In this document: positions 23,214 to 50,276 of the stretch, piece by piece
Layout of the letters: each line of letters begins with the position of its first letter
Position numbering within the stretch: position 1 is the stretch's first letter
NCBI GenBank assembly: GCA_017470425.1
Contig: JAFUYT010000024.1
Coordinates: forward strand, 62,001-126,000
From: Bacteroidaceae bacterium
Lineage (GTDB): Bacteria > Bacteroidota > Bacteroidia > Bacteroidales > Bacteroidaceae
Reading direction: 5' to 3'
Length of the DNA stretch: 64,000 nucleotides
Made by a program: the position numbers and the translations under genes
The notes under the pieces: generated by a model
Database searches by the model: none
Seen by the model: only the letters and a program-made list of their open reading frames with translations
Told to the model about the DNA's origin: nothing

Positions 23214-23248
23214 GCTCATCATACAGCCAAACATAGCGAATAAGCCCG

Positions 23249-23276
23249 CCCCGCAACTCTTCCGTGAGTTGCGGGG
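23249..23276. terminator. Hairpin terminator between converging genes
   Basis: 11-bp perfect arms (CCCCGCAACTC and GAGTTGCGGGG) with a 6-nt loop, followed by CAGTTTCAT. It separates the symporter from the converging Cthe_2159-like gene. The T-tract is short. Confidence 0.65.
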
Positions 23277-23314
23277 CAGTTTCATATCGGGTGGACGATA
23301 GTAGTTTATAGCCC

Positions 23315-25417: not shown

Positions 25418-25563
25418 GTCGTATATGTGTGAGAAGTTCAGTCTTTATGATGATAACGCCTTCGCCCCCCTTTTATTTTCCCCCGCCCGTCCCTTCTCAA
25501 CGAACACCCCCTTCTTCATCACCAATCTTCCGTAAAACTGGGCATTGACCCTGAAACGGTACG

Positions 25564-25977
25564 TCAGATGATGACATAACAACAACGCTGGCTGTCCTCA
25601 TTCAACTTGAACATATCATAAAGATATATTCCGAGGGCGAGGATGACGAGGGTGTTATGAAGAAACTCTATCTTGATGAGGTCAATCCCCACTAATGCCA
25701 TAAACATGAACACATAGTCATAGCCAATCTTTCTCAAACGCCCAGGGTGTTTCACAAAGATGAAATACTCGACTTCACTCCAATCCAGTGACCTAAACAT
25801 CAAGAACATCCCCAGGATGAGCAGGAAACTTCCCACATCATCCAGCCTTGACTGTTCTACAAGCGAATATCCAAAAGCGTAATTCGAAACGCTCATCACC
25901 ATCCACCCAGCGATGGCAATCCACCCAATCCAAAACATGATTGGGTACCCACATTTCATTGTCTCAATCCTTTTCAT
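25564..25977 (-). CDS. Small membrane protein, unknown
   Basis: A 137-residue protein with about four hydrophobic segments (about 13-33, 47-62, 85-102, 105-122) and short polar loops. No family is recognised. It is the first gene of the AT-richer region. It follows the 158-aa lipoprotein gene on the same strand with a 32-bp gap, so they may be cotranscribed. Confidence 0.6.
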   Translation of the reverse strand: MKRIETMKCGYPIMFWIGWIAIAGWMVMSVSNYAFGYSLVEQSRLDDVGSFLLILGMFLMFRSLDWSEVEYFIFVKHPGRLRKIGYDYVFMFMALVGIDLIKIEFLHNTLVILALGIYLYDMFKLNEDSQRCCYVII

Positions 25978-26009
25978 TGTTAACTCCTTTTAAAAGGTTT
26001 ATATTCCTT

Positions 26010-26486
26010 TCACTTGGCAATTTGCGTCATGAGAGCTATAAAGCCAGCCAATCCACCAATTATTCCACACACGAGCCCTACAGTTTTACCCTTACTGAAG
26101 GTCTTTGTCTCATGTGTGTCATACTCGTTGCTCTTCACATTGTAACATTTGTCGTTCTCGTCGAAATAGAACTCCCGAAAGAGCCTTCGCTTCTTGGATA
26201 CGGCGAGCCCCTCAACGGCCAACCCAACCGTATTGAATTGCTCATATACCAGAACCTCAGAAGTGCTACCAAAAGAGAACGTTCTGTCCGGTGCTCCGAA
26301 TCTATTCATCACCTCTCTCTTTGTCCAATTCCGATACATCCTGTTGTATTCCGGTTCCAGCGGAGTAGTATAGGTTTCGTAAGTATAGCAGGAGGTAAAG
26401 GTAACAAGGCTGAGCGCCATCATCAGACAGCACATCGCTCTCCTAAATAATTTTCTCTTTTCCATAATTCTTCTAAACTTATTCAT
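26010..26486 (-). CDS. Lipoprotein with a BamE/SmpA-like segment
   Basis: A 158-residue protein with a lipoprotein signal (MMALSLVTFTSC). The central segment WTKREVMNRFGAPDRTFSFG recalls the BamE/SmpA fold (helix, then GxP before a strand, then a strand ending in EVLVYEQF). The C-terminus has a Gly-rich hydrophobic helix (GLVCGIIGGLAGFIALM). An alternative ATG at 26465 also keeps the signal. Function unknown; the BamE similarity is weak. Confidence 0.6.
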   Translation of the reverse strand: MNKFRRIMEKRKLFRRAMCCLMMALSLVTFTSCYTYETYTTPLEPEYNRMYRNWTKREVMNRFGAPDRTFSFGSTSEVLVYEQFNTVGLAVEGLAVSKKRRLFREFYFDENDKCYNVKSNEYDTHETKTFSKGKTVGLVCGIIGGLAGFIALMTQIAK

Positions 26487-26508
26487 TAAGTGTTATCGCA
26501 AGGGTAAA

Positions 26509-27387
26509 TTAGAATGGTAAATCGTCGTCGTCATATACACTCCTTTGCCATATCTCCGGTGTCCTCATCTCCTCTATTGATAGTTCCTCAAATATCTTGT
26601 ATTTATCACTAAGATGTATGTATGAAGTGGCAAGGCACATGCCAGCTGCTTTAACTCTATAGCTATGCTCATCTATGTCTTCATTACAAAGAGCACGGTA
26701 TTCATTGCTCGCTCTTATTTCTCTAATAATTTTCCTATTCCAATCATCAAAAGTATCCATAACATCTTTGAATCCTAGAGCAGTTAAATATCCTTTGATC
26801 TTCATTATTTCCGGAAAGTTCATCATACTTATGACATCAATATGTTCATCTTCCGGTATGACATGCTGTGCTCCGAGATTTTTACAAACCTCTTCTACCT
26901 CCCAATATAATATGTCAAGAGCCAGTTTATTATTTACAAACATGTCATATTTGCCCAGTTGTCTGTGACAGTCAATCTCTGAATAACCGACAAAGTCTAA
27001 ACTTTGCATCTTTCTCCTCAATAATTTGCACGTGTAATAATTACTGTGTCCGCTGGTTAGCGATTCTTTATTCCTTCTCAGGTCTACCTCTGAGAAATTG
27101 CGCAAGATGATGAAGCCGAGCTTATCCTCTTGATATTTATCCCAGAGTTCCTGAATAATCTCCTTATAATCATCATTCCAATTCCTGCTCATCCAAGACA
27201 TTGCCCAATTCCTAAACAAATCACCATATTTTAATAATATTAATAGATAATCCCTTCTCTGTTTTTCCGTTAAGTTTACTAAATTATGTAGTATAGCTTC
27301 GCACATTGATTGCAACTGAGAACCCGTTTTAATTTTTAAGCCTCGATTCAGCGAAGTCAGTTTCTTCTTGATTGTCCTTTTTTTCAT
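26509..27387 (-). CDS. Unknown protein ending in an SSB-like acidic tip
   Basis: A 292-residue soluble protein, basic at the N-terminus and helical throughout, with no recognised domain. Its last residues are DDDDLPF, nearly identical to the conserved C-terminal tip by which bacterial SSB recruits repair and replication proteins. It is not an SSB (no OB-fold pattern, wrong length). Base composition is AT-rich compared with the flanks, indicating acquisition. It could bind SSB-partner proteins such as RecQ, RecO or PriA, or it may be a coincidence of a short motif. The 22-bp gap to the lipoprotein gene suggests a small operon. Confidence 0.6.
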   Translation of the reverse strand: MKKRTIKKKLTSLNRGLKIKTGSQLQSMCEAILHNLVNLTEKQRRDYLLILLKYGDLFRNWAMSWMSRNWNDDYKEIIQELWDKYQEDKLGFIILRNFSEVDLRRNKESLTSGHSNYYTCKLLRRKMQSLDFVGYSEIDCHRQLGKYDMFVNNKLALDILYWEVEEVCKNLGAQHVIPEDEHIDVISMMNFPEIMKIKGYLTALGFKDVMDTFDDWNRKIIREIRASNEYRALCNEDIDEHSYRVKAAGMCLATSYIHLSDKYKIFEELSIEEMRTPEIWQRSVYDDDDLPF

Positions 27388-27624
27388 TATATGTATCTTT
27401 AAATATGATTAACGACTATGCCCGACTCTGGAAGTTCTTGGATGCACTGAGAGTAACGAGTGTGATAAAGCAAACATTACTTCAGCAAACCCTAGATAGA
27501 ACCTATAATATTGCCAACTAATGCGCCTAATATCTTCATCTTTTTATTTCTTCTATTTGTAATATGTTGATTATTATATTGTTTACTTCTTCTATAAATC
27601 AAAGATGCTGGGTGGATTCGCATA

Positions 27625-28050
27625 TCACATCTTCTGCCATTTCTCACGCACCTCACCCCACTTCACATCCGTCTTCGTGTTTCCCTTCAAGAAGTAGCGG
27701 ACGATGAGCATTTGCGTTTCGTGGTCAACACGCTGATAACGCTCCTTCAGTTCCTGCCGCGCGAGTTTCACGTAGTTCCCTTTCTTCTCTATGAGCATCT
27801 CTCCCAGCTCTTCGATGGAAGCCTCTCGAATCTTCGCCTCACGCCGCTCCATGTCCTCTTTGAACAACATCTCGAAGATGGCCTGTCGCAGTTCATCCTT
27901 CTTGTCCAACCAACGCGATGTAAACAGCCTGACCAGTTCCTCCCTGGTCAAACCCTTCAGTTTCCCAACGCACGCCTCTACAGCCTCCGGCGTCCAGTGC
28001 TGATAATGTGCTTTCTTGCACTCAATAAGAATGTATTCGTAGTTTGTCAT
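27625..28050 (-). CDS. Small helical protein, unknown
   Basis: About 141 residues starting MTNYEYILIECKKAHY. It is charged and helical, with repeats of the type LTREELVRLF and ASIEELGEMLIEK, and no membrane segment. The ATG at 28050 fits the promoter box at 28078-28085; the longer frame from 28080 would start inside that box. It lies downstream of the seven-gene operon on the same strand but has its own promoter. No family recognised. Confidence 0.6.
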   Translation of the reverse strand: MTNYEYILIECKKAHYQHWTPEAVEACVGKLKGLTREELVRLFTSRWLDKKDELRQAIFEMLFKEDMERREAKIREASIEELGEMLIEKKGNYVKLARQELKERYQRVDHETQMLIVRYFLKGNTKTDVKWGEVREKWQKM

Positions 28051-28077
28051 ACCGATTATAATGTTTAGAATCGGCGG

Positions 28078-28085
28078 CAAAGTTA
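28078..28085 (-). promoter_or_regulatory. Bacteroidota promoter for the 141-aa gene
   Basis: Reads TAACTTTG on the minus strand (TAnnTTTG), with a TTG (plus-strand 28106-28108) 20 bp upstream. Confidence 0.65.
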
Positions 28086-28139
28086 CGAATACAAAACCTA
28101 TCGAACAAGCAATTTCAAATCACAAGCCTTGTGAAACTA

Positions 28140-29243
28140 TCACTCTTCCCAAATGACCATATCCGCCGGTAGAGCGACCCTCTTGGGGAATCCCCTCTGA
28201 CCATCTACGCAATAGTGTCGAGCCAGATGATCGTTGAATTTCTCTGTAAAAGTGTTCCTGATTCTGGTGCACTTCTCGTTGATGGAATTACTCATTGGGT
28301 CGGTTACATCCTCAATGCTCTTCTTCACCCGCTCTGTCAATCCGTAGGGTCTTAACCTTATATATATTGTTGCCAGTTCCTCTCTATAGTCTGGAAGTTC
28401 TTTGAAGACGATACCTTCGGGGTGCCTGAGGAACAGCATATAAACAGCCTTCACCAGCGGTTCCATCTTGATTTCCATGTTGTCATAGTCAGGGAGGAAG
28501 ATGCGGTTGTCCTTTTTGATAACGAGCCTGCTCAGTTGGTCATTCTCATGAAGGATATTCTCCAACAACTCCATCGGGACACCGCATTTCTGAAGCTCAT
28601 CAATCTGTTTTCTGAACAGCATCAACTTAGCCTGCGTCTTCTCGCAAAACGAAGGGAACTTGGACTCCGTGCCGTCTCCCGACTGCATTTTAAACAGTGC
28701 GGCCCCATGTCCCAGTCGGCTTGGCTCTGGCTCTTCATCGTCCTTCTTGAAATATTCATGAGATTCCAGTATGTTCGAGATCCCATAGCCAAACATGAAA
28801 AGATTGGATATATCCTCATCCAACGGGTAGTATTCGAACACCGTTAACCCGTTTCCTTTCTCCTTTTTGAAGAACAGGAAACCGGCTTTCAGGAATCTCA
28901 CGTCATCGGGATCCTCTAGATAGTCCAACAAATCCGTAGTGTTAATGTCCGGTATCCTTCTAAGCTGCTCGTCCGACATAAAAGGAAACAGGTAGCGGAC
29001 ATACGAACGTTTCTTCAGTTTCTTGGACAGACTCGGGATATAGGTGAGTTCGGGCCACCCGTACTTATATCGGTTGAAGAACACTTTCCACAGCAACCAA
29101 CCCCACCATCTCAGATAGCGGTTGAACTTCTTATGATATGCATTCTCAATATAGATAGAACCCCTCAGATTGATGTCTGGGAGATCCTTGAAGTTCACCA
29201 GACAGTGACCTCCTGAATTTTTCAGATCTGCGTAATCAATCAT
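28140..29243 (-). CDS. Unknown protein, operon gene 7
   Basis: A 367-residue protein without a recognised fold. The N-terminal part has a Trp-rich hydrophobic stretch (RYLRWWGWLLWKVFF, about 43-57) that could be a membrane-associated helix. The C-terminal 120 residues form a second unit beginning near VKAVYMLFLRHPEGIVF, with the look of a conserved regulatory or helical domain seen in other Bacteroidota hypotheticals (recollection, not verified). It starts 4 bp after the LRR gene stop, the last gene of the tight operon. Confidence 0.6.
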   Translation of the reverse strand: MIDYADLKNSGGHCLVNFKDLPDINLRGSIYIENAYHKKFNRYLRWWGWLLWKVFFNRYKYGWPELTYIPSLSKKLKKRSYVRYLFPFMSDEQLRRIPDINTTDLLDYLEDPDDVRFLKAGFLFFKKEKGNGLTVFEYYPLDEDISNLFMFGYGISNILESHEYFKKDDEEPEPSRLGHGAALFKMQSGDGTESKFPSFCEKTQAKLMLFRKQIDELQKCGVPMELLENILHENDQLSRLVIKKDNRIFLPDYDNMEIKMEPLVKAVYMLFLRHPEGIVFKELPDYREELATIYIRLRPYGLTERVKKSIEDVTDPMSNSINEKCTRIRNTFTEKFNDHLARHYCVDGQRGFPKRVALPADMVIWEE

Positions 29244-29247
29244 AACC

Positions 29248-30639
29248 CTATGCCATTAGTCCGATTTTATACCCCGAATCTTTCAGCGATTCATCAAAGA
29301 TGACATTCTCAATCTGTGGCCAGTTCTCATATATCAAGCCGTGGGTGACTTTATAGGTCTCCCAGGCACAGTCCCCATCTTTGATGTTCGGCCCTAAACG
29401 CAAAGTCCGCAAGTTCAGGCAAGTTACAAACGCCTCGCGTTTGATGTTGGTCACGAAGCTCGGAATGGTGAAGTCTGCGTCCTTCGTGAAGCAAAACACA
29501 AGACATACACTCGTGAGACGCGGGATTCCGAAGTACAATGTGTCGCCCATCGTCCAAAACTTGCTTTCAGGCAGCGGATTCTCTGACTTCGTGATATCTA
29601 CTTCATCGCCATATCTCTCCCAGTCATCCTTAAAGTAGTTCTCTTCTTCCTCGGTCATGTGCGTCATGGTGATGCTGTTGAGGTTCCAACACTCATGACA
29701 GCAGCTGCCGCCAAAGTCCTTGGCCAGTTGCGACAAATGAATATGTTGTAAAGCGTGGCAGCCATTGAGGAAGCCCTTTTGGAAAATCTCCACAGAATCT
29801 GGCATGATAAATTCCTTTAGCGCCCTACAATCCTCGAAGGCCCTCTCCATAATCACTTTGAGTTCATCATTTAGACCGATCCTCTCCAAAGAGTAGCATC
29901 TGCGGAACCCCTCTTTGCCGATGGACTTCACATGGGCAGGCAAGTCCAATTCACGCAGGCTGCGGCATTGGCAAAACATCCTGTTAGGAATCGCTGTGAT
30001 GTGGGAAGGTATAACGACCTTCGTCAGCGAGTTGCAGTTCATCAACATATCTTCATCTATGATTGTCACCGATTCCGGGATGACCAGTTCTTGGAGAGCG
30101 ACACAACTGTAGAAGGCCTTCTTTCCAATGCGTTGGAGTGTTGAAGGCAGGCTCACTCGCTTCATCACGTCGCAGTTCATGAAGCATCGGTGGTATATGT
30201 TCACCACGCCCTCTGGTACATCGAACTCTTCAACTCTGTCATGCACATAAAGCAGTGTGCGGCCTTCGTTAGCATAGATGGCCACATCATCCACGACATA
30301 AGCATCGGGCCATACCTTCTTATCTTTGAATTCTCTATATTTCCCTGCTGGGAGCAGAGGAGCATTCATCCTTTCCCACTCCTCGTCTCTTTTTTCCCAC
30401 TCTTCATGTTCGTACTCCTCTGGATAGAAATGTTTCCTATATGCCGTCTTCCACCCCAGTCCCTTCGCATCCATCAACACGCGTATTCCTCTGTATGCTG
30501 GTCGCAGTACGAAGAAGTACAAGAGGATAATTGGAGTGATAATCAAGAGCACAACACTCATTGCGATGAAGCTCTTGACGCCACCGCACAGGTCTATTAA
30601 ATCCTGAATGTATACTTTTATTTTGGTGAGTAGATTCAT
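29248..30639 (-). CDS. Membrane-anchored BspA-type leucine-rich-repeat protein, operon gene 6
   Basis: 463 residues. One hydrophobic segment near the N-terminus (about 23-45, IAMSVVLLIITPIILLYFFV) is followed by a charged linker and then BspA/LRR_5 repeats from about 125 to 340 (for example LPSTLQRIGKKAFYSCVAL, IPESVTIIDEDMLMNCNSL). A final repeat (FVTNIKREAFVTCLNLRTL) lies near 420. BspA repeats serve as binding surfaces, often for host or cell-surface ligands. With the N-terminal anchor the repeats may lie on either side of the membrane. Placed 2 bp after DUF1848, an unusual partner for nucleic-acid enzymes. Confidence 0.8.
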   Translation of the reverse strand: MNLLTKIKVYIQDLIDLCGGVKSFIAMSVVLLIITPIILLYFFVLRPAYRGIRVLMDAKGLGWKTAYRKHFYPEEYEHEEWEKRDEEWERMNAPLLPAGKYREFKDKKVWPDAYVVDDVAIYANEGRTLLYVHDRVEEFDVPEGVVNIYHRCFMNCDVMKRVSLPSTLQRIGKKAFYSCVALQELVIPESVTIIDEDMLMNCNSLTKVVIPSHITAIPNRMFCQCRSLRELDLPAHVKSIGKEGFRRCYSLERIGLNDELKVIMERAFEDCRALKEFIMPDSVEIFQKGFLNGCHALQHIHLSQLAKDFGGSCCHECWNLNSITMTHMTEEEENYFKDDWERYGDEVDITKSENPLPESKFWTMGDTLYFGIPRLTSVCLVFCFTKDADFTIPSFVTNIKREAFVTCLNLRTLRLGPNIKDGDCAWETYKVTHGLIYENWPQIENVIFDESLKDSGYKIGLMA

Positions 30640-30641
30640 TG

Positions 30642-31694
30642 CTATCCGATAATACTTTCACTCTCGTCGTTGTGCTTATCTTTATTCTTCAGCACAGCCT
30701 CTTTGCTGGTGTTTGCGTAGCAATAAACACAAAAATGACGACAGGTGTTATACATACCGATGTCCTTACTTACCATACACCCGCAAATCTTTCGCTGACC
30801 AGTATCTTTTACGCTCTTAGGTTTCTGTGGAATTGGTGGTATCTCACCAAACATATCTTTCTCTGGCCACTTCAAGGTGTGAAGGTAGTAAACTAATTCC
30901 TTATCATCTGCAAAGATGCGCTTCATCAACTCACCATCGATGCAGCGGTTGTGCTGAATGCCATAGGCTTCGAGGTCAATATCTTCTGCACATGTTGCCA
31001 TCTCAACATCCCACCCATCGTTATGCCAAGCTTCACGGATTTTCTTTAGCCCTTCAACAATTTCGATACGTTGAACATAATTCGCCTCCGCATTTTCAAC
31101 ATCTTCTTTAGTGAAAAGCATAGTTTCTTTGACAAGGTTGTTCTGCACCTTACGATATGCCTTTACGTCAACGAAACTAAATACCAACTTGTCTGTGTAA
31201 CCTTTCAGCTTATTTCCAATATGCCAAATTCTTGTAAGCAATTCTATTGGCCCAATATTAGGCGTAATGATTAGAGGGTCGAATCGCCAAATCACTTTCT
31301 CTTTACCGATTAGGTTTGACAACTTCTTGAAAGTTTCTACACGCTTATCTACAGAAGGAACATTCGGTTCGAATCCTTCTTTCTCATAATCATTCAGCGT
31401 TACTTGAAAGTAGTAATGTATACCTCTTTTATCAAGTTCAGGCAAATAAGGAATAATGGGTGCTGGATTCTTTGTCCAAAACACAACAACCCGACATCTC
31501 TCAAAAGAGATATACATCTTTTGCTGGTTAAACGGGTTATACCAAGTACAATAGCCTTTAGTCAAGCGGTTGAAGAACCACTTGGCATAAAAAGCTGGGA
31601 TGTCCGTAGAACGGCTGGCTGATATGACAACAGGTGCAGTCGCCTCTACCTGTTTGCCATCGTCGGTTGTGATATACGTTTTATCAGCTGACAT
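30642..31694 (-). CDS. DUF1848 family protein with CX3CX2C cysteine motif, operon gene 5
   Basis: A 350-residue protein matching DUF1848 (PF08902). Conserved-looking blocks are VVISASRSTDIPAFYAKWF, YNPFNQQ, VVFWTKNPAPII and FSFVDVKAYRKV. The C-terminus has KICGCMVSKDIGMYNTC followed by CRHFCVYCYAN: a CxC pair plus a CX3CX2C motif identical in spacing to radical SAM enzymes but placed at the end of the chain. Such cysteines could hold a [4Fe-4S] cluster. Enzymatic function is not known. Gap to the 732-aa gene is 6 bp. Confidence 0.82.
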   Translation of the reverse strand: MSADKTYITTDDGKQVEATAPVVISASRSTDIPAFYAKWFFNRLTKGYCTWYNPFNQQKMYISFERCRVVVFWTKNPAPIIPYLPELDKRGIHYYFQVTLNDYEKEGFEPNVPSVDKRVETFKKLSNLIGKEKVIWRFDPLIITPNIGPIELLTRIWHIGNKLKGYTDKLVFSFVDVKAYRKVQNNLVKETMLFTKEDVENAEANYVQRIEIVEGLKKIREAWHNDGWDVEMATCAEDIDLEAYGIQHNRCIDGELMKRIFADDKELVYYLHTLKWPEKDMFGEIPPIPQKPKSVKDTGQRKICGCMVSKDIGMYNTCRHFCVYCYANTSKEAVLKNKDKHNDESESIIG

Positions 31695-31700
31695 GAATAC

Positions 31701-33899
31701 TTATAAACAACGTGTTTCCAGAGATTTTATTATTGCATCAATATCAAGAACTTGATACAATTTATTTTTCCACGACAAATCATAGCCTTTCGAACTTGTA
31801 TGCTGATTTTTCCCAACAAGCAATTGTTCACGGAATTTAGCAATGAGATCACGTTGACTCATACGTTCAGAATATTTCGGATCTAGAACCCAGAGTAAAT
31901 CTTTGCGAAGCGATTCCAGCACTTTCTTCTCATAACCGAATTCCATTGATAATACCAAAATGATTCTTTCTACGTTATTATACTCAAAGGATATTTTTTC
32001 CATCTTGTCATCAGGCTTCTTTTCAAACAATGACCCAATAGTTCCAGAATTATTATCAGTAGAATTGGAGAATAATGACTGTTGCTTAGCAGGCTTGCTT
32101 TTGGAAACCGCTTCACGTTTCCCTATCGCTTTGTAATTGGGATGGAGTTCCTTTTGTAAATGTGGGAAGATTCCTTTTGTGAGGCTATCCATTTCATTGC
32201 CAATCATGTTAATGAATGCAATGCCATCGTCCTGAGCTTTACTAATGGCCAAATCAATTGTCTGCCTGTCTTTGGAAGATATTTTGATTCTTGGATGGGA
32301 AGCAATTATGTCCTCTACTTTTTTTCTTAAATCGATTACGCCAATGCTTGATGAATATACAGAAAATTCATTTCCATTTGCACTAGGCGTTTCGTTGGCA
32401 ACAGAAGAAGGATAACTCTCAGTAATAGTTACAGTGCCATACGTTGGATCAACACCATGCAATTGCCCATAGATTTCTTTGTAAACTTCTGCTATATACT
32501 TTCGATTGTCATGTAAACCAAACAAGTTATCTGTAAAGTCCCTTGTCAGGTTTGCAAAGCCATTCAACTCTCCATATAGAGCGAAAGCCATTCGATAATC
32601 TGATATTAGCTTGCTCTGCATAAAGCTGCGTAGTTGCTCCCAGTCACCGCCTTTTGCCAATACTGCTGCAATAGCAGAAAAAATATCATCTTGCCAATTT
32701 ATTGTAGATTCTTGTGCACGGACATACCGACGCATTTGGTTCAGCTCTATCTTTGCACGGCTTTCATCCCAACTGTCAGCATACACTTCTTTAGCTTTCC
32801 TTGTAACAACATCCGATAATGTTTCTGCGAAGGTGGTAATCTTTCCGCTATACTCTGATGAAGAAAGTACATCGTTTACCCATGCCTTCATCAAACGCTG
32901 TTCCATATCGTCAGTTAGATGAGAGTTTGCAATCTTTGACAAAGCATTATCAGCCAATATGATTTCTTCTGACGAAGTTGCCAAATATTTCCGTTCCGCA
33001 ATCTCCTCTTTTCTGAGACTGTCTTTTTCTCTCTTCAGCCATTCGTAAGCAGGATTGTAATCTTCTGTTGCATATTGTAATGAATCGATGATTCGCTCCC
33101 CATCGAATGTGGACGGGAACACAACTCCAAATTTGGAAAGGCCGGCAATGATGTCTTCTACCTTGAAGTTCTCTTTTGCAATCTTTTGAAGATAGTCGAC
33201 AATGGGGTCGAGCTTCTTCAGGTTGGCAAAACAGGCATTCAATTTCTCATGCTGAAGAACTGTTGGCGAATGTGACTCAGAAGACAATATAGAAGAGAAT
33301 ATATTCTGTATCTCTTGTAGCGTGTTTGCCTTGTCTGTCAGTTCAGGAGTGCTTGATAACAATGCACCAATGTAGTAACCATAGAGTAAGCCCTTCATTT
33401 TATTTACACGCACATCATGGCCAATTGCCTCTTTGTTCAAGGGAATAGTGCCAGTATAGGCAGGTTGCTCTTTTCTCTGATAAGTCTCAACATATAACTG
33501 ACGATGGTACAGTCCAATCATTTTTGTTTCAAGGCTACTGTCAGATATAGACAACGCTACGCGACGGTCTTGCTCTGTGAAGAAGATGAAACGTGTTCTC
33601 CAAGGGGAAAGATAGATGCTTTCGTCGCTATAATACACACCATTTGCTATAGAAGGATACTCTTTGTCGGTTGTTATTTCTACAAGCATAGGATGATCTT
33701 CCACATCACTTGCAGGGCGGACAAACTCGAAAGGCTCTTCATATAACAAGATTGCATTCTCTTGGTTGTTCTCCGCCACTTCCTGCCAACGAGAATAACC
33801 GAACCCTCTTATGGCATAGAATGCTTTGGGAGAAATACTTTCACTCGACAGGATGTTATTGAAATTCAGCGTCGAGGTCGGAATATATAACTTCTTCAT
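31701..33899 (-). CDS. Large unknown protein, operon gene 4
   Basis: A 732-residue soluble protein. The N-terminal 150 residues (starting KLYIPTSTLNFNNILSSESI) look compact and beta-rich. The rest is mostly helical, with charged stretches near 290-420. A low-complexity Ser/Asn linker at about 600-640 (KPAKQQSLFSNSTDNNSG) joins a C-terminal helical module. No catalytic motif or known domain is recognised. The start lies 1 bp from the helicase stop, implying translational coupling and probably a physical or functional partnership. It could be the effector or scaffold of the system. Confidence 0.65.
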   Translation of the reverse strand: MKKLYIPTSTLNFNNILSSESISPKAFYAIRGFGYSRWQEVAENNQENAILLYEEPFEFVRPASDVEDHPMLVEITTDKEYPSIANGVYYSDESIYLSPWRTRFIFFTEQDRRVALSISDSSLETKMIGLYHRQLYVETYQRKEQPAYTGTIPLNKEAIGHDVRVNKMKGLLYGYYIGALLSSTPELTDKANTLQEIQNIFSSILSSESHSPTVLQHEKLNACFANLKKLDPIVDYLQKIAKENFKVEDIIAGLSKFGVVFPSTFDGERIIDSLQYATEDYNPAYEWLKREKDSLRKEEIAERKYLATSSEEIILADNALSKIANSHLTDDMEQRLMKAWVNDVLSSSEYSGKITTFAETLSDVVTRKAKEVYADSWDESRAKIELNQMRRYVRAQESTINWQDDIFSAIAAVLAKGGDWEQLRSFMQSKLISDYRMAFALYGELNGFANLTRDFTDNLFGLHDNRKYIAEVYKEIYGQLHGVDPTYGTVTITESYPSSVANETPSANGNEFSVYSSSIGVIDLRKKVEDIIASHPRIKISSKDRQTIDLAISKAQDDGIAFINMIGNEMDSLTKGIFPHLQKELHPNYKAIGKREAVSKSKPAKQQSLFSNSTDNNSGTIGSLFEKKPDDKMEKISFEYNNVERIILVLSMEFGYEKKVLESLRKDLLWVLDPKYSERMSQRDLIAKFREQLLVGKNQHTSSKGYDLSWKNKLYQVLDIDAIIKSLETRCL

Positions 33900-33900
33900 A

Positions 33901-35034
33901 TTAAATGTCTTCTACTTCTTCTGTTTCTGTTGTTTTATACAAATTAGCAGGAATGTCACTTAAGGGTTTTGGTAACTGTCCGCTATACATAATGTAAAGA
34001 TAGCGGTAGGTACGAGACATTGCAACATAAAGAGCTTTGCTGTCATCACCTCTGTCATCCACAAAACTATCTATGTATGGAAGGAATATTGCTTCAAATT
34101 GCAAGCCCTTGGCACTATGATATGTCATAACCTTAGGGTTTGTCGTTTCAAAGTTCAAATTGTTTTTGCTGTTTCTAAAATCTTCCTTGTCATCATACTT
34201 CATTTCTACATTTAGTCCTAAGGATATTAATGCCTCTCCAATTTGCCTTACGAGTTCTCCAGAGGGTACTAAAATGGCAACATCCGTAAAATCATGATCT
34301 TCCTTGATCTTCTTAATAGCTGAGATTTGAGATTCCGCTTCAGAATACTTCAAGACACAAGGAACAGTTCTTTCTGGGCTTTTGTATATACTTTCGTCAA
34401 ATGGGGGCAAATCAACACCAACGCTTTGAATATACCTTGCAACAGGCAATGGAAGACGATAGTTTCTATATAGTTCCCAATCTTTGCTTTCTATTCCTGA
34501 TTGATAAAGCATGTGCCCGATGTTCTGAACAGGCATTGTCCTTTTCAGTCTTCCATAAATTGATTGTGCTGTATCGCCAAAGAAAAAGAAGTTTTTCTTT
34601 GTGGCCCGTACAAATTCCATTATCTCTTGTTGCTCAAAATCTTGTATTTCATCTACTATTACATAGTCTGACTTTGGCATATTAGGAATTTTGTTACCAT
34701 TATCATCTCGTTCATATACCCAAAAGCTTTGCCCATTTCTATAATGTTTCAGGTATTTCTTCCATCTCCACTCTTCATGATACATGAACTCATTAACAAG
34801 TCCCAATTCTTTGCGTCCAGAATTCATATATCCACAAAGTGCTTTAGTAAAGACGATTATCTGGTAGCTGTTCCCCCTTTCCTTTTGTAATCGTTGAGCT
34901 TTTATAAGGGCAAGAACAGACTTCCCACTACCAGCACAGCCAGATACAATACAGGATTTGTCAAGCGTCGCTTTAAACACTTTAAGTTGATCGTCGTCCA
35001 GTTCGGACTCTTTTATCATCCAGTCTTTTTTCAT
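33901..35034 (-). CDS. Compact superfamily 1 helicase-like ATPase, operon gene 3
   Basis: A 377-residue UvrD/Rep-like protein with the core motifs in order: Q-motif region DDDQLKVF, Walker A GCAGSGKSV near 32-40, motif II VIVDEIQDF (usual DExQD) near 126, motif III FFGDTAQSIYG near 152, motif IV NYRLP, motif V TYHSAKGLQFEAIF near 308, motif VI YVAMSRTYRYLYI. At this length it lacks the 1B/2B insertions of full UvrD helicases, so it may be a translocase or ATP switch acting on DNA or RNA rather than an independent helicase. C-terminus acidic (ETEEVEDI). Confidence 0.85.
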   Translation of the reverse strand: MKKDWMIKESELDDDQLKVFKATLDKSCIVSGCAGSGKSVLALIKAQRLQKERGNSYQIIVFTKALCGYMNSGRKELGLVNEFMYHEEWRWKKYLKHYRNGQSFWVYERDDNGNKIPNMPKSDYVIVDEIQDFEQQEIMEFVRATKKNFFFFGDTAQSIYGRLKRTMPVQNIGHMLYQSGIESKDWELYRNYRLPLPVARYIQSVGVDLPPFDESIYKSPERTVPCVLKYSEAESQISAIKKIKEDHDFTDVAILVPSGELVRQIGEALISLGLNVEMKYDDKEDFRNSKNNLNFETTNPKVMTYHSAKGLQFEAIFLPYIDSFVDDRGDDSKALYVAMSRTYRYLYIMYSGQLPKPLSDIPANLYKTTETEEVEDI

Positions 35035-35038
35035 ATAT

Positions 35039-35842
35039 TTATAGTTTTTGAATTATTCTCCAAGCAATTTTACTAATGTCATTTGCCCGTTTTTGATGCC
35101 TAACGGTAAATGTTTGATTATATCCTTCATTCCTAAGAAGTACGCGGCTTTGGCTCTGTGCAATTCCTTCATCCATCACCATTGGCAGCCATTCTTGCGA
35201 TACATTGTTATATGTAGATACATCTGCCAACACCATGATTCCATCTCCCTTGATGCGAGGAAGAAATGTTTTGGCAATGTGCGCGTATGCGTTCTGCTGT
35301 TCAAAACGTTCTTTTGTAACAAATTCACAAATAGCCTTGAAAGACATGAATATATCAAAGTCTCCCGATAGAACAGAGTTCATTACGTGTAAATCATAGA
35401 AGTCATCAATAGTCAAGGGGATTATCCTATGACTAACACGCAATCGAGTTCTTGTTGTATATTCAGCGATTACGCTTTCAAACAATCTCAATGAGTGGTG
35501 ATTGCCATCCATTGCGGCAACATGAACGTTGTTGATTTGCGGCAGACGCTCTGAAATTGCACTCAGCAATCCAATAATCTCACCACCTGTACCGCACCCA
35601 AAGTCAAACACCGTCAACTCTGTTTTTTCCGTATATCTATCTGCACCAGTTCTGAAAAACTCTGTAAAGATGCAATATGCTTCTGCATAGCTCCGAGGGA
35701 AATATGTTCCCAGGTAGTTGAGAACGTCTTTCTTGTCCCAGTCAATGACCGTCATGTCGGCATTAGAACGTTGATATTTTGCCCCTAACTGCTCAAATAT
35801 TAGGTGGTCTAACCATTGTGGTAATGTTACTCTATCTTGCAT
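35039..35842 (-). CDS. Class I SAM-dependent methyltransferase, operon gene 2
   Basis: A 267-residue Rossmann-fold methyltransferase. Motif I is VFDFGCGTGGEIIGLL (about 75-90), then an acidic strand end VAAMDGN and a later FDIFMSFKAICEF. The preceding YFPRSYAEAYCIF resembles the entry helix of RNA/protein methyltransferases of the Rsm22 type (weak resemblance). No DPPY/NPPY DNA-amino-methylase motif is seen, so a DNA N6/N4 methylase is unlikely. Coupled to the helicase by a 4-bp gap. Substrate unknown. Confidence 0.8.
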   Translation of the reverse strand: MQDRVTLPQWLDHLIFEQLGAKYQRSNADMTVIDWDKKDVLNYLGTYFPRSYAEAYCIFTEFFRTGADRYTEKTELTVFDFGCGTGGEIIGLLSAISERLPQINNVHVAAMDGNHHSLRLFESVIAEYTTRTRLRVSHRIIPLTIDDFYDLHVMNSVLSGDFDIFMSFKAICEFVTKERFEQQNAYAHIAKTFLPRIKGDGIMVLADVSTYNNVSQEWLPMVMDEGIAQSQSRVLLRNEGYNQTFTVRHQKRANDISKIAWRIIQKL

Positions 35843-35861
35843 ATCCTTCCTCTGATATAGT

Positions 35862-36080
35862 TTATAACCCCATTAGCGGCTTCAAAGCATTCAGTAACAA
35901 TTCCCGTCGATGTATTTCTGCATCCTTTTCTTCTTGTGAAGCGAAAGGACAACTCTCAATATTGTGTTTTGTTCCTGCTAACATATAATCTACCATATCG
36001 CGAGTCTGTTCCTCGGTAACGAATCTGCCACCAAATAGAGCGTCCAGATATTGCGCAGCACCAGCTGCATGTTCTGCCAT
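35862..36080 (-). CDS. Small acidic protein, operon gene 1
   Basis: A 72-residue protein (MAEHAAGAAQYLDALFGGRF start), predicted helical, with a charged centre (ASQEEKDAEIHRRELLLNAL). No homologue recognised. First gene of the operon, 19 bp before the methyltransferase start. About 90 bp upstream is a -7 box (36170-36177). It could be a regulator or a partner subunit. Confidence 0.55.
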   Translation of the reverse strand: MAEHAAGAAQYLDALFGGRFVTEEQTRDMVDYMLAGTKHNIESCPFASQEEKDAEIHRRELLLNALKPLMGL

Positions 36081-36169
36081 CTATAGATTATGTTGCATTA
36101 CTTTCTGTTCGTCAACCATATAACTAACGTTTTAGGTGTCTCTATTCAGATTTGCCACTTTTTGCGCCA

Positions 36170-36177
36170 CAAAGATA
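36170..36177 (-). promoter_or_regulatory. -7 box for the seven-gene operon
   Basis: TATCTTTG on the minus strand matches TAnnTTTG exactly. It leaves about 85-90 nt of leader before the 72-aa gene at 36080. No strong -33 element seen. Confidence 0.6.
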
Positions 36178-36332
36178 CGACAAAGATTCCAAAGTCATAT
36201 CATAAATCGCCCAAAATTCTATTCCACAAGCCTTGCAAAAGAATGATTTTTGCAAAAAAAAACTACGAGCCATCCCACCGAGGACGCTGGCAGTCAATTC
36301 TGAGGGGTAAATCAACAACCAGTGAACGGCTA

Positions 36333-37133
36333 TCACCGCCTCTCAACGAGGGCCATGAAGTCATCATTGATTTCCCGCAAGTCGTCTGTCAGGATATTGT
36401 TGCACTTCTCGGCTATCTCATCTGGTATCTCATAGCAGCAGGCGGCAATAGCACCAGCCATACAAGCGATGGTGTCAGAGTCGCCGCCAAGAGAGATGGC
36501 CAGTCGAATGACCTCCTCGAAAGAGTTACCCTCCAAGAATGAGATGATGGCCTCAGGCACACTACCCTGACAGGACACATCAAAGCGATACCCGGGACGT
36601 ATCTCTGCTATCTTCCGGTTCAGATCATAAAAGAAAGTCTGTTCGACGTACTCTTTGATTTCCTGCTTCGACGCCCCCTCCTTGCAAAGGAACACGCTTG
36701 CCGCTATCGCCTGTGCCCCTTTCACGCCCTCGGGGTGGTTATGGCTCACTGAGGCAGTGATGGCAGCAAGTGTCAACGCTTCATCGAGTGTCTTGGCAAA
36801 CAACCCGACCGGACTCACTCGCATACCTGAGCCATTGCCCCAGCTGTTGTATGGTTGTGGGTCATACTCACCCAGCCAACTGCGGAACCTGCCGCCGTAT
36901 CCTGCATTCGGGTACCGGTTGCCCAACTCCTGCATACAACAGATCAGATCATGTATGGTATGCGCTGGGTCTTCCAGCAGCCATTTTGCCACGGCCAACG
37001 TCATCACGGAATCATCCGTGAACGTTGTCCACGGCGTGAACAAGTCAAACTCTGTTGACTTCGTGTTCTGAAACTCGTAGACGGAGCCGATGATATCACC
37101 CACCACAGCTCCTAACATCTTGACATGTGCCAT
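36333..37133 (-). CDS. ADP-ribosylglycohydrolase family protein
   Basis: A 266-residue DraG/ARH-type hydrolase, which removes ADP-ribose from proteins or nucleic acids using two Mg ions. GAVVGDIIGSVYEF, TFTDDSVMTLAVA (metal-binding TDDS) and GGDSDTIACMAGAIA are all intact, so it should be active. Length is normal. It lies about 250 bp upstream of the seven-gene operon on the same strand, separated by the operon promoter. In this setting it could reverse ADP-ribosylation by a toxin or phage enzyme, but housekeeping use is equally possible. Confidence 0.88.
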   Translation of the reverse strand: MAHVKMLGAVVGDIIGSVYEFQNTKSTEFDLFTPWTTFTDDSVMTLAVAKWLLEDPAHTIHDLICCMQELGNRYPNAGYGGRFRSWLGEYDPQPYNSWGNGSGMRVSPVGLFAKTLDEALTLAAITASVSHNHPEGVKGAQAIAASVFLCKEGASKQEIKEYVEQTFFYDLNRKIAEIRPGYRFDVSCQGSVPEAIISFLEGNSFEEVIRLAISLGGDSDTIACMAGAIAACCYEIPDEIAEKCNNILTDDLREINDDFMALVERR

Positions 37134-37157
37134 ATATTATTATGTTACTTGCCTTTA

Positions 37158-37340
37158 TCATTTACTCTTAGCTTCTTCTACAGCCCTTAGTTTTGTCATT
37201 TCACCTTTGAGATACTGATGGGCGTTAAAGAACTCGTTCAGCTCTGTACTAAGATATTCTTTGGGATTGGGAATGTTGCCTCCTATCTGTGAGAAAAGGC
37301 ACTCCGCCGTACTGTTTCTTATTTCTCTACGTTTTGCCAT
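37158..37340 (-). CDS. Small protein, possibly a gene remnant
   Basis: 60 residues. The first residues (MAKRREIRNSTAE) resemble the start of RhuM-like proteins (IRNSTAEFL), and the rest (LNEFFNAHQYLKGEMTKLRA) is a charged helix. It may be a remnant joined to another tail or a genuine small gene. It is 24 bp upstream of the ADP-ribosylglycohydrolase gene. Confidence 0.4.
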   Translation of the reverse strand: MAKRREIRNSTAECLFSQIGGNIPNPKEYLSTELNEFFNAHQYLKGEMTKLRAVEEAKSK

Positions 37341-37383
37341 GCTTACATAACGTTACTTCATTGTCCTATCGCTTATATAAGGT

Positions 37384-37837
37384 CTATTTGCCCTTCTGCT
37401 TCGCCTTCTTCTCAATCATCTTGATCGACTCTAAGTAAGCCTGCTCTACTGGCGACAAAGTCTTATTCAGCCAGCCGTTCCGTGGCCCACTGGCGGAAGC
37501 GTGTACCCACAATGGACTTCACTCGATAGCCGACGCTGATGATGACATCCAAGTTGTAGAGCGTTACCTCTTGGTTCTGTGTTTTTCCCTCTAAAGCGCC
37601 ATGTTGAGTGGTGTGTCGGAATTTCCGACATACCTTTTCCTTCTCTAGTTCACCTTCTTTAAAGATGTTCGATATATGCTCCGTTATCGTTGATCTTCCT
37701 TTACCATATAATGTCGCAATTTGCTCTTGCGTCAGCCAGACCGTTTTGTTTTCCAGTCTGACATCCAGCCTAATCTTCCCATCTTCCGACTGGTAGATGA
37801 TAATCTCACCATTGTTTTTCTCTATCTCGTTTGCCAT
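37384..37837 (-). pseudogene. RhuM-family gene with internal deletion
   Basis: The first about 122 codons (37837 to 37463) are a clear RhuM (PF13310) N-terminal half: VWLTQEQIATLYGKGRSTI, EHISNIFKEGELE, CRKFRHT, YNLDVIISVGYRV, RFRQWATERL. The frame then hits a stop, whereas RhuM proteins are about 330 residues. In another frame directly downstream (37479-37384) lies a short tail SPVEQAYLESIKMIEKK, which looks like the RhuM C-terminus. The simplest reading is a large internal deletion with a frameshift. RhuM genes are common in defence and plasmid islands. Confidence 0.75.
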
Positions 37838-37858
37838 TGTATATTCAATTATAATTTA

Positions 37859-37866
37859 TATCTTTG
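37859..37866 (+). promoter_or_regulatory. Isolated -7 box match
   Basis: TATCTTTG on the plus strand between the RhuM remnant and the restriction-enzyme remnant. It points to a short open frame (LVNNIKEVEQGRLSIRH) with no start codon of note. Probably a leftover promoter of a lost gene. Confidence 0.35.
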
Positions 37867-37935
37867 CACTCGTTAACAACATCAAGGAAGTGGAACAAGG
37901 CCGATTATCCATTCGTCATAAGACGGTGATATATG

Positions 37936-38190
37936 TCATGCCCCCATCACTATCTTCCGTTCCTCGTCCGTCAGACCGTAGAGGTCGAACACCTTAGTGT
38001 CTATCTCAGCATCGGTGGCGGCTATCTGGGCCGTGAGCTGCTGGCACTCTGCTACGCTGGCGTTGAAGAACTCCTCCCATTCGTTTTGCTGCATCAGCGG
38101 GATGCGAATCTTCTGTATCACCTGCGCATGTTCACCATTCCTTGGCGGCTGCTTCAGGAACAGGACGATGTGTACGATATGGCTTTTCTG
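37936..38190 (-). pseudogene. C-terminal remnant of a DNA methylase/restriction enzyme
   Basis: The minus-strand frame reads VLFLKQPP, then IRIPLMQQNEWEEFF, QIAATDAEIDTKVFDLYGL and TDEERKIVMGA. This pattern (helix, then EIDxxVxxLYGLTxEExxIV at the very end) is typical of the C-terminus of type IIG/Eco57I-like restriction-methylases. Everything upstream of it is missing and replaced by a fragment of an ATPase gene, so only the tail survives. Family assignment is from memory of the motif. Confidence 0.5.
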
Positions 38191-38192
38191 GT

Positions 38193-38270
38193 GACAACGA
38201 ACTGTGGATTCTTGCGGCCAAAGGCTTCGTTCAGCCGCTCTATGTCTGCCTTTCTGTCTAAGAAATTCAT
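38193..38270 (-). pseudogene. N-terminal remnant of an AAA ATPase gene
   Basis: From an ATG at 38270, just after a strong promoter, the frame reads MNFLDRKADIERLNEAFG and then NPQFVV. It matches the N-terminus of the DUF234-type AAA ATPases, which continue with YGRRRxGKST. Here the match stops at VV and the frame soon ends, abutting the restriction-enzyme tail. A deletion apparently fused the two. Confidence 0.5.
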
Positions 38271-38292
38271 GCCGATTATTAATTATCTGCGA

Positions 38293-38324
38293 CAAAGATA
38301 ATCCTTTTCAAAGATATTTCCAAA
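38293..38324 (-). promoter_or_regulatory. Strong Bacteroidota promoter in front of gene remnants
   Basis: -7 TATCTTTG (plus-strand 38293-38300) and -33 TTTG (38321-38324) with an ideal 20-bp spacer, reading leftward. The ATG at 38270 follows 22 bp after the box. A good promoter is retained on a dead gene. Confidence 0.7.
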
Positions 38325-38545
38325 TATTTTGCACGCTTTTTCTCTTCCGGGCTATTTCCTAAGCACCAACCACGGAATAATCCCCTTCCACTTCTTATGC
38401 GGATAATCAGCGGGATTACCGATGTCATGGCGGATGGCGCCTTTGTCACGATAGAAGCAATAGTCGCAGCCGACGGCTGTGGATGACGGCATTGTGGCCG
38501 CTTATGAGCTCTCACCGTTGGACTCGCGGGGCGGAAGGGCATAGG
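38301..38545. other. Gap with a possible unrecognised gene fragment
   Basis: No intact gene. On the minus strand one frame reads CDYCFYRDKGAIRHD, then IGNPADYPHKKWKGIIPWL, ending in a stop near 38357, which looks like the tail of a protein. No family could be assigned and no start is seen. Confidence 0.35.
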
Positions 38546-38551
38546 GTGTTG

Positions 38552-38642
38552 GGTGGATCACCGTGGTGATCCACCTGATGGGACGCGCGGTGTAGCGCAG
38601 AAGGATGCATGGTGTCGGGTGGATCACCAAGGTGATCCACCC
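38552..38642. repeat. Two copies of a GGTGGATCACC palindrome
   Basis: 38552-38575: GGTGGATCACC, GT, GGTGATCCACC. 38617-38642: GGGTGGATCACC, AA, GGTGATCCACCC. The palindromes are perfect apart from the 2-nt centres, about 66 bp apart and in GC-rich context. They contain GATC. They sit at the junction between the scrap-gene area and an extremely AT-rich stretch. Confidence 0.85.
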
Positions 38643-38739
38643 GGTGCGTCGTGGGGTGTGGTGGCGCAGGGCTCGATGTGTGTCCCGACGGGGCATGGGG
38701 TTGTTGTCCAAAGGTTGCAGCGCTCAGGTCGTCTCCTGC

Positions 38740-39240
38740 AGATGTATTTTATATAATGATGTTATGATGTTCTTTTCACTAAATATGCTATAAGCTGTTT
38801 ATTTACAGTAGAGTAATTGAGTGAAAAATAGCAATTAAATGCGAAAAATAGGGCTTTTTTAGGGTTAAATAAGGAGAATTTGGGCATAAAATGCTTGAAA
38901 ATTGCTTCTAAATGATGAAATTTTTGCATTATTTACTTCATTTATTTACAAATTTCGTCAAATTTATGCCTATTTTAGCGGTAAAATTACCCTAAAAACA
39001 ACATTATTTCGGCTCTAATTGCACATTTTATCCTATTAAATACGCTATTATCACTAATTATTTACTATTTAATTTAGCGATAATCAAAAGAGATACAATT
39101 AAATAGGCCATATTTAGTGAAAATGCCTAATTATATAAATCATTTTTTTTATTCCGACGATAAACCGACGATAAACCGACGATAAAAATCATGCTGGGAT
39201 ACAATTTTTTCTTTCTTTTTGTTAGGGAATACAGAAAATG
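38740..39240. other. Very AT-rich non-coding region
   Basis: About 500 bp with no ORF of note, far more AT-rich than both flanks. Recurrent words are GAAAAATAG (38822 and 38842 areas), TATTTAGTG, TTTAGCG (twice) and an inverted pair TTTTTAGGGT (38856-38865) / ACCCTAAAAA (38989-38998). It ends with an 11-bp triple repeat at 39154. It immediately precedes the paaK promoter. Confidence 0.8.
39154..39186. repeat. Triple 11-bp direct repeat CCGACGATAAA
   Basis: Three exact head-to-tail copies (39154-39164, 39165-39175, 39176-39186), one helical turn apart, about 60-90 bp upstream of the paaK -7 box. The spacing is suited to a DNA-binding protein. Confidence 0.9.
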
Positions 39241-39243
39241 TTG

Positions 39244-39251
39244 TACCTTTG
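39244..39251 (+). promoter_or_regulatory. Bacteroidota promoter for the first PaaK gene
   Basis: TACCTTTG at -7 with TTTG at 39218-39221 (22-bp spacer). The ATG at 39287 follows 35 bp later. Confidence 0.7.
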
Positions 39252-50254: not shown

Positions 50255-50276
50255 CCACGGCAGACATACAAAGGAT

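Follow-up and report, generated by a model that had tools for sequence, protein, structure and literature searches.

The window analyzed here, a 64,000-nucleotide stretch of a gut Bacteroidota genome, contains seven minus-strand open reading frames packed so tightly that successive gaps measure just 19, 4, 1, 6, 2 and 4 bp (Table 1). These spacings, taken from the ORF list, agree exactly with an earlier note on this DNA, which had described a compact seven-gene operon at 28140-36080 and proposed it as a candidate system for defense or nucleic acid processing. The -7 box that the note placed ahead of gene 1 is likewise there: the consensus match TATCTTTG, of the Bacteroidetes type, belongs to a pattern (TANNTTTG) that occurs 40 times in the window against the roughly 16 occurrences expected from shuffling. 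Upstream of the seven genes lie the ADP-ribosylglycohydrolase gene that had been reported as adjacent (profile match 3.1e-36) and a short RhuM-like ORF of 124 aa, seen at 37463-37837. For genes 1, 4 and 7, Pfam and NCBIfam gave nothing that passed a model's cut-off and PADLOC gave nothing at E<=0.5, and a search of 23000-39500 for RNA families returned two matches, both far under their gathering scores.

Table 1. Features of the locus, in window coordinates.
Feature	Position	Strand	Description
Inserted island carrying the cassette	23174..39242 (approximate ends)		blastn of 14 same-genus loci
Gene 8	27625..28080	-	151 aa, after gene 7; LRR-gene 7 cassette member (L033, L210, L217)
Gene 7	28140..29243	-	367 aa, common family, separable cassette
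Gene 6 (LRR)	29248..30639	-	membrane-anchored BspA-type LRR protein, separable cassette
Gene 5 (DUF1848)	30642..31694	-	350 aa, radical-SAM-like, core
Gene 4 (G4)	31701..33899	-	732 aa, no family match, core
Gene 3 (HEL)	33901..35034	-	377 aa, compact SF1 helicase, core
Gene 2 (MT)	35039..35842	-	267 aa, class I SAM methyltransferase-like, core
Gene 1	35862..36080	-	72 aa, leader gene, outside conserved core
Bacteroidetes-type -7 box TATCTTTG	36170..36177	-	consensus match, 89 bp upstream of gene 1

The operon does sit in an AT-richer block, as had been suggested, with a GC content of 0.38-0.47 over 28-36 kb (0.45-0.47 across 28-31 kb and 0.38-0.41 across 31-36 kb) against mostly 0.55-0.65 in the flanks. 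In eight of 14 same-genus loci compared by blastn, the sequences found in the window at about 23158-23214 and 39203-39287 are only about 20-155 bp apart. The window copy of the genes discussed below is therefore contained in a low-GC insertion of about 16 kb that is absent at the sites of these eight relatives.

Genes 2-5 are a mobile module of conserved order that is present in many other bacteria. We collected 79 loci by way of G4, counting the window and six near-duplicate pairs, so G4 is present in every locus by construction. All four genes lie on one strand in 55 of them; at least one of MT, HEL and DUF1848 is missing from the other 24, in some cases owing to contig ends. Taken singly, MT is found in 68 loci, HEL in 72 and DUF1848 in 62. 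HEL is no more than 50 bp upstream of G4 in all 72 loci that have it, and spacing within 50 bp is also the rule for MT-HEL (59/64) and G4-DUF1848 (50/62). The order MT-HEL-G4-DUF1848 is maintained across differing genomic contexts and phyla, with hosts that are mostly Bacteroidota and also include records titled Desulfovibrio, Helicobacteraceae, Planctomycetes, Geobacter and Clostridium. MT, HEL and G4 diverge jointly, and DUF1848 apart from them: among the 55 complete sets, pairwise distances are correlated for MT-HEL (r=0.53), MT-G4 (0.71) and HEL-G4 (0.80; 0/500 permutations each), and DUF1848 distances do not track the divergence of the other three. Mean identity among loci is 27% for G4 and 39% for MT. 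The module is sporadic, with G4 in 10 of 251 same-family genomes, and complete copies occur on a contig deposited as phage (L140) and on an IMG/VR contig (L097); copies in isolates include the Prevotella jejuni and Bacteroides mediterraneensis loci L035 and L084. Phage records gave a single match for G4, and a plasmid search at E<=0.01 matched neither MT nor G4. Because genes 2-5 recur in order across genomes and phyla, the conserved co-occurrence that the earlier note had envisaged for genes 1-5 holds with the exception of gene 1; it does not extend to gene 1, the LRR gene or gene 7.

Genes 1, 6, 7 and 8 are neighbors or optional accessories outside this core. Relatives of gene 1 were found in two of 121 genomes, its own included, and just three of the 79 loci (the window, L033 and L091) have gene 1 or a relative near the module; in the latter two a 993- or 996-aa gene comes between it and MT. 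Gene 6 does encode the membrane-anchored BspA-type LRR protein previously proposed (LRR_5, 1.7e-51, with a hydrophobic stretch from about residue 14). Of the 79 loci, just the window and L033 have this gene or a close relative adjoining the module; in L025 the gene that follows DUF1848 matches LRR weakly (4.6e-7), and L046 and L074 encode different LRR proteins at a greater distance from the module. Relatives of gene 7 are near the module in four of the 79 loci (the window, L025, L033 and L034), and the family occurs in 69 of 251 same-family genomes, with up to seven matches per genome, versus the 10 of 251 that have G4. L210 has LRR, gene 7 and gene 8 without the module. The last three genes are thus a recurrent but separable cassette, and the distributions of gene 1, the LRR gene and gene 7 do not support the view of the earlier note that the seven genes are conserved as one unit. 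A narrower version of that view, in which the seven genes form one system at least in this lineage and the LRR protein serves as a membrane anchor, seems very unlikely to us. It would account for the gaps of only 2 and 4 bp that join LRR and gene 7 to the core, and the neighborhood does recur, since L033 keeps the order gene 1, core, LRR, gene 7, gene 8, and L025 and L034 likewise have gene 7 relatives downstream of the module; other loci, moreover, have a different and partly membrane-anchored neighbor (the x825/x383 family). However, the G4 genes of L033 and L034 are near-duplicates, which leaves this recurrence resting on two lineages, and in L033 DUF1848 and LRR lie about 0.6 kb apart. The unequal GC content of the two operon halves, the single further locus with a close LRR relative, the far wider spread of gene 7 and the module-free cassette of L210 all argue in the same direction.

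Of the core proteins, HEL is the compact SF1/UvrD-like helicase that had been predicted (UvrD_C 4.9e-9), with the motor motifs GCAGSGKS, IVDEIQ, GDTAQSI, HSAKGLQ and YVAMSR, and a Walker A pattern is present in 69 of 72 HEL sequences. Among PADLOC models it resembles NERD+UvrD (C3a187, 2.6e-16), RTasHel (7.6e-14), GajB, AbiO and Nhi. Gene 2, proposed as a SAM methyltransferase, gave only weak matches to methyltransferase models, all of them under cut-off (best CheR, 0.0079), but has a CGTGGE motif; inspection by eye revealed neither a DPPY- nor a PC-type DNA methyltransferase motif. NERD-like N-terminal extensions are found on 10 of 68 MT proteins and PIN-like ones on four (near-duplicates included), with the NERD domain of the L021 protein supported by Pfam (1.7e-8). 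Window proteins had no NERD match, and the window MT carries no nuclease domain.

G4 remains without an assignable family, as the first reading had it. Alignments of relatives show that its N-terminal two thirds are better conserved and that its C-terminus is variable. Pfam, NCBIfam and PADLOC yielded no recognizable domain, 10 members run against PADLOC gave only weak single-member matches (best 0.014), and the alignment run against solved structures gave two weak, unrelated matches (0.28 and 0.66) and no relative. An N-terminal pattern, together with ADP-ribosylglycohydrolase genes near the module, suggested a DarT-like ADP-ribosyltransferase; we rejected this idea when the first 220 columns scored 14.1 in hhalign against nine DarT sequences, a value within the range of 40 shuffles (mean 13.4). 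An ADP-ribosylglycohydrolase gene stands directly before G4 in L049, and the window, L071 and L095 have such genes close to the module.

We somewhat favor the view that genes 2-5 are a mobile module directed against mobile elements, probably phages, and acting on nucleic acid. This reading of the sequences stems from the PADLOC-like components, the nuclease fusions and the patchy distribution, which make the defense role proposed at the outset a reasonable inference; the module's nearest neighbors showed no clear enrichment for defense genes. PADLOC matches at E<=1e-15 were not clearly more among the nearest neighbors (124/127 of those listed) than among 124 control genes. Neighbor families had at most three members versus one in controls, and numbered 50 versus 33, many being overlapping models of one kind. 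KwaB (9.4e-31) is the second gene downstream of the module in L016. Kept order, near-zero spacing, sporadic spread, the island, joint divergence and the nuclease-like fusions to MT all speak for such a module; the lack of a clear enrichment, the lack of a plasmid match, the single phage-record match, the domainless G4 and the nuclease-free window MT count against defense.

The gene 5 protein shows both the DUF1848 family match and the C-terminal Cys cluster noted before (9.9e-92; CRHFCVYC at residue 318), and CxxxCxxC is present in 58 of the 62 module copies. It matches PADLOC RTasDUF1848 (3.5e-41), and the unrearranged window protein matches rSAM_PA0069 (0.0029). The Cys-cluster region aligns to PA0069-type radical SAM proteins, a group related to spore photoproduct lyase, and the cluster alone scores 52.8 in hhalign. 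A first hhalign run, for which 23 of 25 PA0069 loci were used and the two motif-less ones dropped, gave 50 columns and a score of 59.9 in native order and 265 columns and 71.7 in permuted order; a cut scan gave a near-equal score at any cut point, and with the tail removed both orders score 60.0, a value that comes from the Cys cluster. The body without the cluster scores 22.9, versus a mean of 16.6 and a maximum of 26.6 for 60 shuffles. After rearrangement, five of six members match rSAM_PA0069 (best 5.6e-4). Native or permuted DUF1848 found no radical SAM structure among solved structures (best E 0.77 and 0.82, to an unrelated chain), nor was a DUF1848 relative found there. These comparisons are no more than suggestive of DUF1848 being a circular permutation of a PA0069-type radical SAM protein.

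The match of the cluster region to such proteins also fits a set of enzymes that serves the cell itself, and methyltransferase, helicase and radical SAM protein would make a plausible repair set. The genes could then be a stress-induced operon for nucleic acid repair or RNA modification (of tRNA or a DNA lesion, for example) that travels on mobile islands, with HEL exposing the lesion and MT and the radical-SAM-like enzyme modifying or reversing it. Neighbors without clear defense enrichment are in keeping with this idea, yet we consider it unlikely given that the sporadic spread (10/251 genomes), the fast divergence of G4 (27%) and MT (39%), the nuclease-like fusions, the island and the phage-labeled contigs fit defense better.

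DUF1848 genes are also common on their own in genomes and viral contigs, and their presence alone is therefore no argument for defense. Of 23 viral-contig loci with DUF1848, 22 show neither MT nor G4, one of these (L306) having a helicase match. The papers searched made no mention of DUF1848, PF08902 or RTasDUF1848, nor of DUF1848 paired with a reverse transcriptase. The viral occurrences, the presence of two candidate modifying enzymes within a single operon and the fusion of NERD and PIN to MT would all suit a modification system that shields mobile elements, in which MT and DUF1848 place marks on the DNA or RNA of the element itself and HEL-G4 reads marked or unmarked sites, in the manner of restriction-modification or anti-restriction. 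We regard this as decidedly unlikely: MT has no visible DPPY- or PC-type motif, and HEL-G4 occurs without MT in six loci that have room for it upstream (L074, L083, L086, L089, L098 and L099, with L098 a duplicate of L083), which suggests that an MT-made mark is not always required.

If genes 2-5 indeed act against invading elements, HEL and G4 may constitute a recognition-and-motor unit in which G4 would turn its variable C-terminus toward the target while HEL would move along the invading DNA or RNA. MT and DUF1848 might then chemically modify the engaged nucleic acid, and forms of MT fused to NERD or PIN would cut it. Where there is no fused nuclease, as in the window, the damage could come from the modification itself or from an activity hidden in G4. 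DUF1848 would be a recruited and exchangeable radical-SAM-like enzyme. In its most specific form, a possibility that we hold to be rather doubtful, this would be a new multi-phylum immune system whose HEL-G4 pair marks the invader by means of a circularly permuted radical SAM enzyme and of MT, the latter bearing swappable NERD or PIN domains, while the radical SAM component moves between systems on its own. Should the defense reading be correct, radical-SAM-type chemistry and a large unclassified family, G4, would enter bacterial immunity, and the DUF1848 genes of phage contigs and genomes would gain a testable role. The four-gene unit is compact enough for direct cloning, and its split from the LRR/gene 7 cassette shows which genes to test first.

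Several known systems share parts with the module. The window MT matches positions 20-156 of the RT_UG35 profile (5.6e-7; L063 MT, 3.7e-8), a short span only, and MT from L021, L134 and L140 has no such match; together with the RTasDUF1848 and RTasHel matches of gene 5 and HEL, this recalls the UG35-class reverse transcriptases and associated models of PADLOC. Reverse transcriptases, however, match RT_UG35 at about 310-660, outside the MT span, and 10 window proteins searched against Pfam, NCBIfam and PADLOC include no reverse transcriptase family, this MT match being the only one to any such model; the window G4 matches no PADLOC model. A genome survey with RT_UG35 (150/395 genomes matched) was unusable, with the generic reverse transcriptase region covered among the matches listed, and it yielded no bona fide UG35 locus for comparison. 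The PDC-M16 candidate system is approached through the L021 MT, whose N-terminal part matches PDC-M16A (2.9e-34), but only about the first 240 of its 688 residues match a profile of length 917, and no window protein does so among the matches listed. In PA0069 and spore-photoproduct-lyase-like radical SAM proteins the CxxxCxxC cluster that aligns with DUF1848 is located toward the N-terminus rather than the C-terminus. The defense systems that combine NERD with an SF1/UvrD helicase (AbiO, Nhi and C3a187) are likened to the module by the match of HEL to positions 195-541 of the 559 in C3a187 and by the NERD-like extensions of MT. They differ from it in that the module, most members of which lack NERD, as the window does, keeps nuclease and helicase on separate proteins, fuses NERD to a methyltransferase, and adds G4 and DUF1848.

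Calling open reading frames (ORFs) and scanning for domains in the window confirmed the seven closely spaced minus-strand genes that the earlier note had proposed as one operon, as well as the domain types it had assigned to gene 3 (HEL, an SF1 helicase), gene 5 (DUF1848) and gene 6 (LRR, a BspA-type LRR protein). Its reading of gene 2 (MT) as a methyltransferase stands in part, in that the match is of class I type but weak and below cut-offs. Genes 1, 4 (G4, 732 aa) and 7 have no Pfam or NCBIfam match above cut-off and no PADLOC model.

Coordinates of the features discussed, each numbered within its own locus
Feature	Locus	Coordinates	Remarks
Gene 8	window	27625-28080	151-aa ORF in the minus-strand block, after gene 7
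Genes 1-7	window	28140-36080	minus strand
ADP-ribosylglycohydrolase	window	36333-37133	upstream of the seven-gene block; domain match
ADP-ribosylglycohydrolase	L049	9123-9920	near G4
ADP-ribosylglycohydrolase	L071	11331-12125	near G4
ADP-ribosylglycohydrolase	L095	19672-20691 and 2466-3326	near G4
Inverted repeat	window	38551-38642	28-nt arms, 93% complementary
Presumed phenylacetate-CoA-ligase-like gene	window	39287-40594	
tRNA-Lys (ctt) genes	window	50182-50350	two in tandem
Coiled-coil protein	L033	5049-8030	993 aa, between gene 1 and MT
Coiled-coil protein	L091	4985-7975	996 aa, between gene 1 and MT
C-terminal-domain family	L044	12072-14549	near G4
C-terminal-domain family	L049	7060-8211	near G4
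C-terminal-domain family	L071	8181-10007	near G4
C-terminal-domain family	L036	9992-12892	fused to G4
C-terminal-domain family	L029	6784-7521	near G4
HEL-G4 with three genes before it	L083	4241-10648	the three genes (364/375/397 aa) stand in MT's place
MT-DUF1848 pair with neighbours	L134	1325-10408	HEL-G4 absent; retron-type RT nearby
MT-HEL-G4-DUF1848	L140	6698-12488	full set

What recurs elsewhere is a module of genes 2-5, MT-HEL-G4-DUF1848. Of 251 same-family genomes, 10 (the window's own among them) encode a G4 homologue, and an alignment scan gave 72 loci from the genome collection and 3 from viral contigs; together with the window, L023, L024 and the phage-record locus L140 these make 79 loci, which contain G4 by construction and include six pairs of near-duplicates in G4 (L033/L034, L054/L055, L070/L097, L072/L084, L075/L076 and L083/L098). 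Of these loci 72 contain HEL, 68 MT and 62 DUF1848, and 55 have the complete set; several of the 24 incomplete ones are truncated where the contig stops (L037, L052, L059, L066 and L069 among them). HEL and G4 lie within 50 bp of each other in all 72 loci with HEL, and because the two occur without MT despite upstream room in six loci (L074, L083, L086, L089, L098, L099), the HEL-G4 pair looks like the innermost core, to judge from gene content. G4 stands without HEL in 7 of the 79 (L024, L025, L036, L045, L049, L060, L088). The L140 set lies on an unannotated contig from human faeces deposited as Bacteriophage sp. (MT835661.1).

A single conserved seven-gene unit is not supported by the remaining genes. 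Gene 7 occurs in 69 of 251 genomes, with up to 7 matches in one, and among the 79 loci its relatives lie near the module only in the window, L025, L033 and L034, a close LRR relative only in the window and L033. One of 12 fetched gene 7 loci, L210, has an LRR relative adjoining gene 7; gene 8 is present there too, but the module is not. From these distributions we conclude that the module and an LRR-gene 7-gene 8 cassette are separable and have come together in two or more lineages. In L033 the core is preceded by gene 1 and then a 993-aa gene, and is followed by a 111-aa ORF and, in this order, LRR, gene 7 and gene 8; gene 1 itself was found in 2 of 121 genomes, its own included. The coiled-coil protein of L033 and L091 has a CoiA-like nuclease region by eye, and the L033 copy has no PADLOC match.

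Within the 55 complete sets, mean pairwise identity is 39% for MT, 46% for HEL, 27% for G4 and 65% for DUF1848. Distances correlate for MT-HEL (0.53), MT-G4 (0.71) and HEL-G4 (0.80), values reached in 0 of 500 permutations each. DUF1848 distances correlate barely or not at all with those of MT (0.17; 14/500), HEL (-0.02; 263/500) and G4 (0.07; 94/500), and DUF1848 thus appears to be swapped between systems. In G4 the N-terminal two thirds are better conserved than the C-terminus, and no Pfam match is consistent across 68 members (at most 6 share any one). DUF1848 is also found on its own: it has matches in 50 of 257 Bacteroidota genomes (E<=1e-10); nine of ten regions fetched showed it, none with MT, HEL or G4. 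MT and G4 were not found in 22 of 23 viral-contig DUF1848 loci (L300-L322), in several of which DUF1848 is a short 255-aa ORF.

Other partners accompany the module genes. The three genes preceding HEL-G4 in L083 recur in the same order in L086 (L098 is a copy of L083; the records are Planctomycetes and Geobacter); by eye one is sigma-factor-like, one anti-sigma-like and the third of no assigned type, which suggests another front end for the pair. A family with a common C-terminal domain also recurs near G4. Its L044 and L049 members have hydrophobic stretches at the N-terminus, the copy in L018 (L018 and L044 are one locus) matches Sel1 repeats weakly (0.015), and the L036 member is fused to G4; the L049 protein has matches in 8 of 151 same-family genomes, most without G4. 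By plain count, four loci (window, L049, L071, L095) have ADP-ribosylglycohydrolase genes near G4, and in L049 the gene directly precedes it. Neighbours of the L134 pair also include an AAA/OLD-type defence-model match and an RtcR-like regulator.

GC content in the window falls to 0.38-0.41 across most of genes 2-5 and to 0.45-0.47 across genes 6-7, against flanks that are mostly at 0.55-0.65. We compared the region upstream of a gene that we take to be phenylacetate-CoA-ligase-like with its counterpart in 14 same-genus genomes, drawn from 49 matched among 61. In eight (L269, L270, L271, L273-L277) only about 20-155 bp separates window positions ~23.17 kb and ~39.24 kb, and in L265 ~5.4 kb of other DNA lies between them; for five (L264, L266, L267, L268, L272) no left flank was found within the stretch fetched. 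By this comparison ~16 kb was inserted in the window, the whole seven-gene block included. The site, near 39250, is variable among L264-L277 and is a possible insertion hotspot; a tRNA search of the window found no tRNA gene there. The inverted repeat near the island's right end overlaps a 66-nt direct repeat.

As to function, the module most likely provides defence against mobile elements through a nucleic-acid-acting complex. Its composition, fusions, patchiness and mobility fit the defence role suggested in the earlier note, but a direct test showed no clear enrichment of known defence genes among its nearest neighbours, KwaB near L016 being the single strong case. A NERD-like N-terminal extension occurs on 10 of 68 MT proteins (backed by Pfam in L021) and a PIN-like C-terminal one, assigned by eye, on 4 of 68. 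YLGTYFPRS or a close variant is found in 67 of 68 MT, a Walker A pattern in 69 of 72 HEL and CxxxCxxC in 58 of 62 DUF1848; other patterns as written fit fewer copies (for example GDxxQS, 48 of 72 HEL).

DUF1848 was not mentioned in the literature searched, which left out most subscription papers, and the four-gene set may already be included in some later system list. PADLOC 2023 has no model matching the window's G4, and its models match three of the four module components. The Cys cluster at the C-terminus of DUF1848 can be aligned to the one that PA0069-type radical SAM proteins carry at the N-terminus (score 52.8 for the cluster alone). The rest of the protein may be a circularly permuted radical SAM barrel: the body alone scores 22.9, within the range of 60 shuffles (mean 16.6, maximum 26.6), although its aligned piece falls at the position predicted by circular permutation. 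Among known systems, HEL resembles the helicases of the PADLOC NERD+UvrD, RTasHel, GajB, AbiO and Nhi models, MT the N-terminal part of RT_UG35, and the DUF1848 protein RTasDUF1848.
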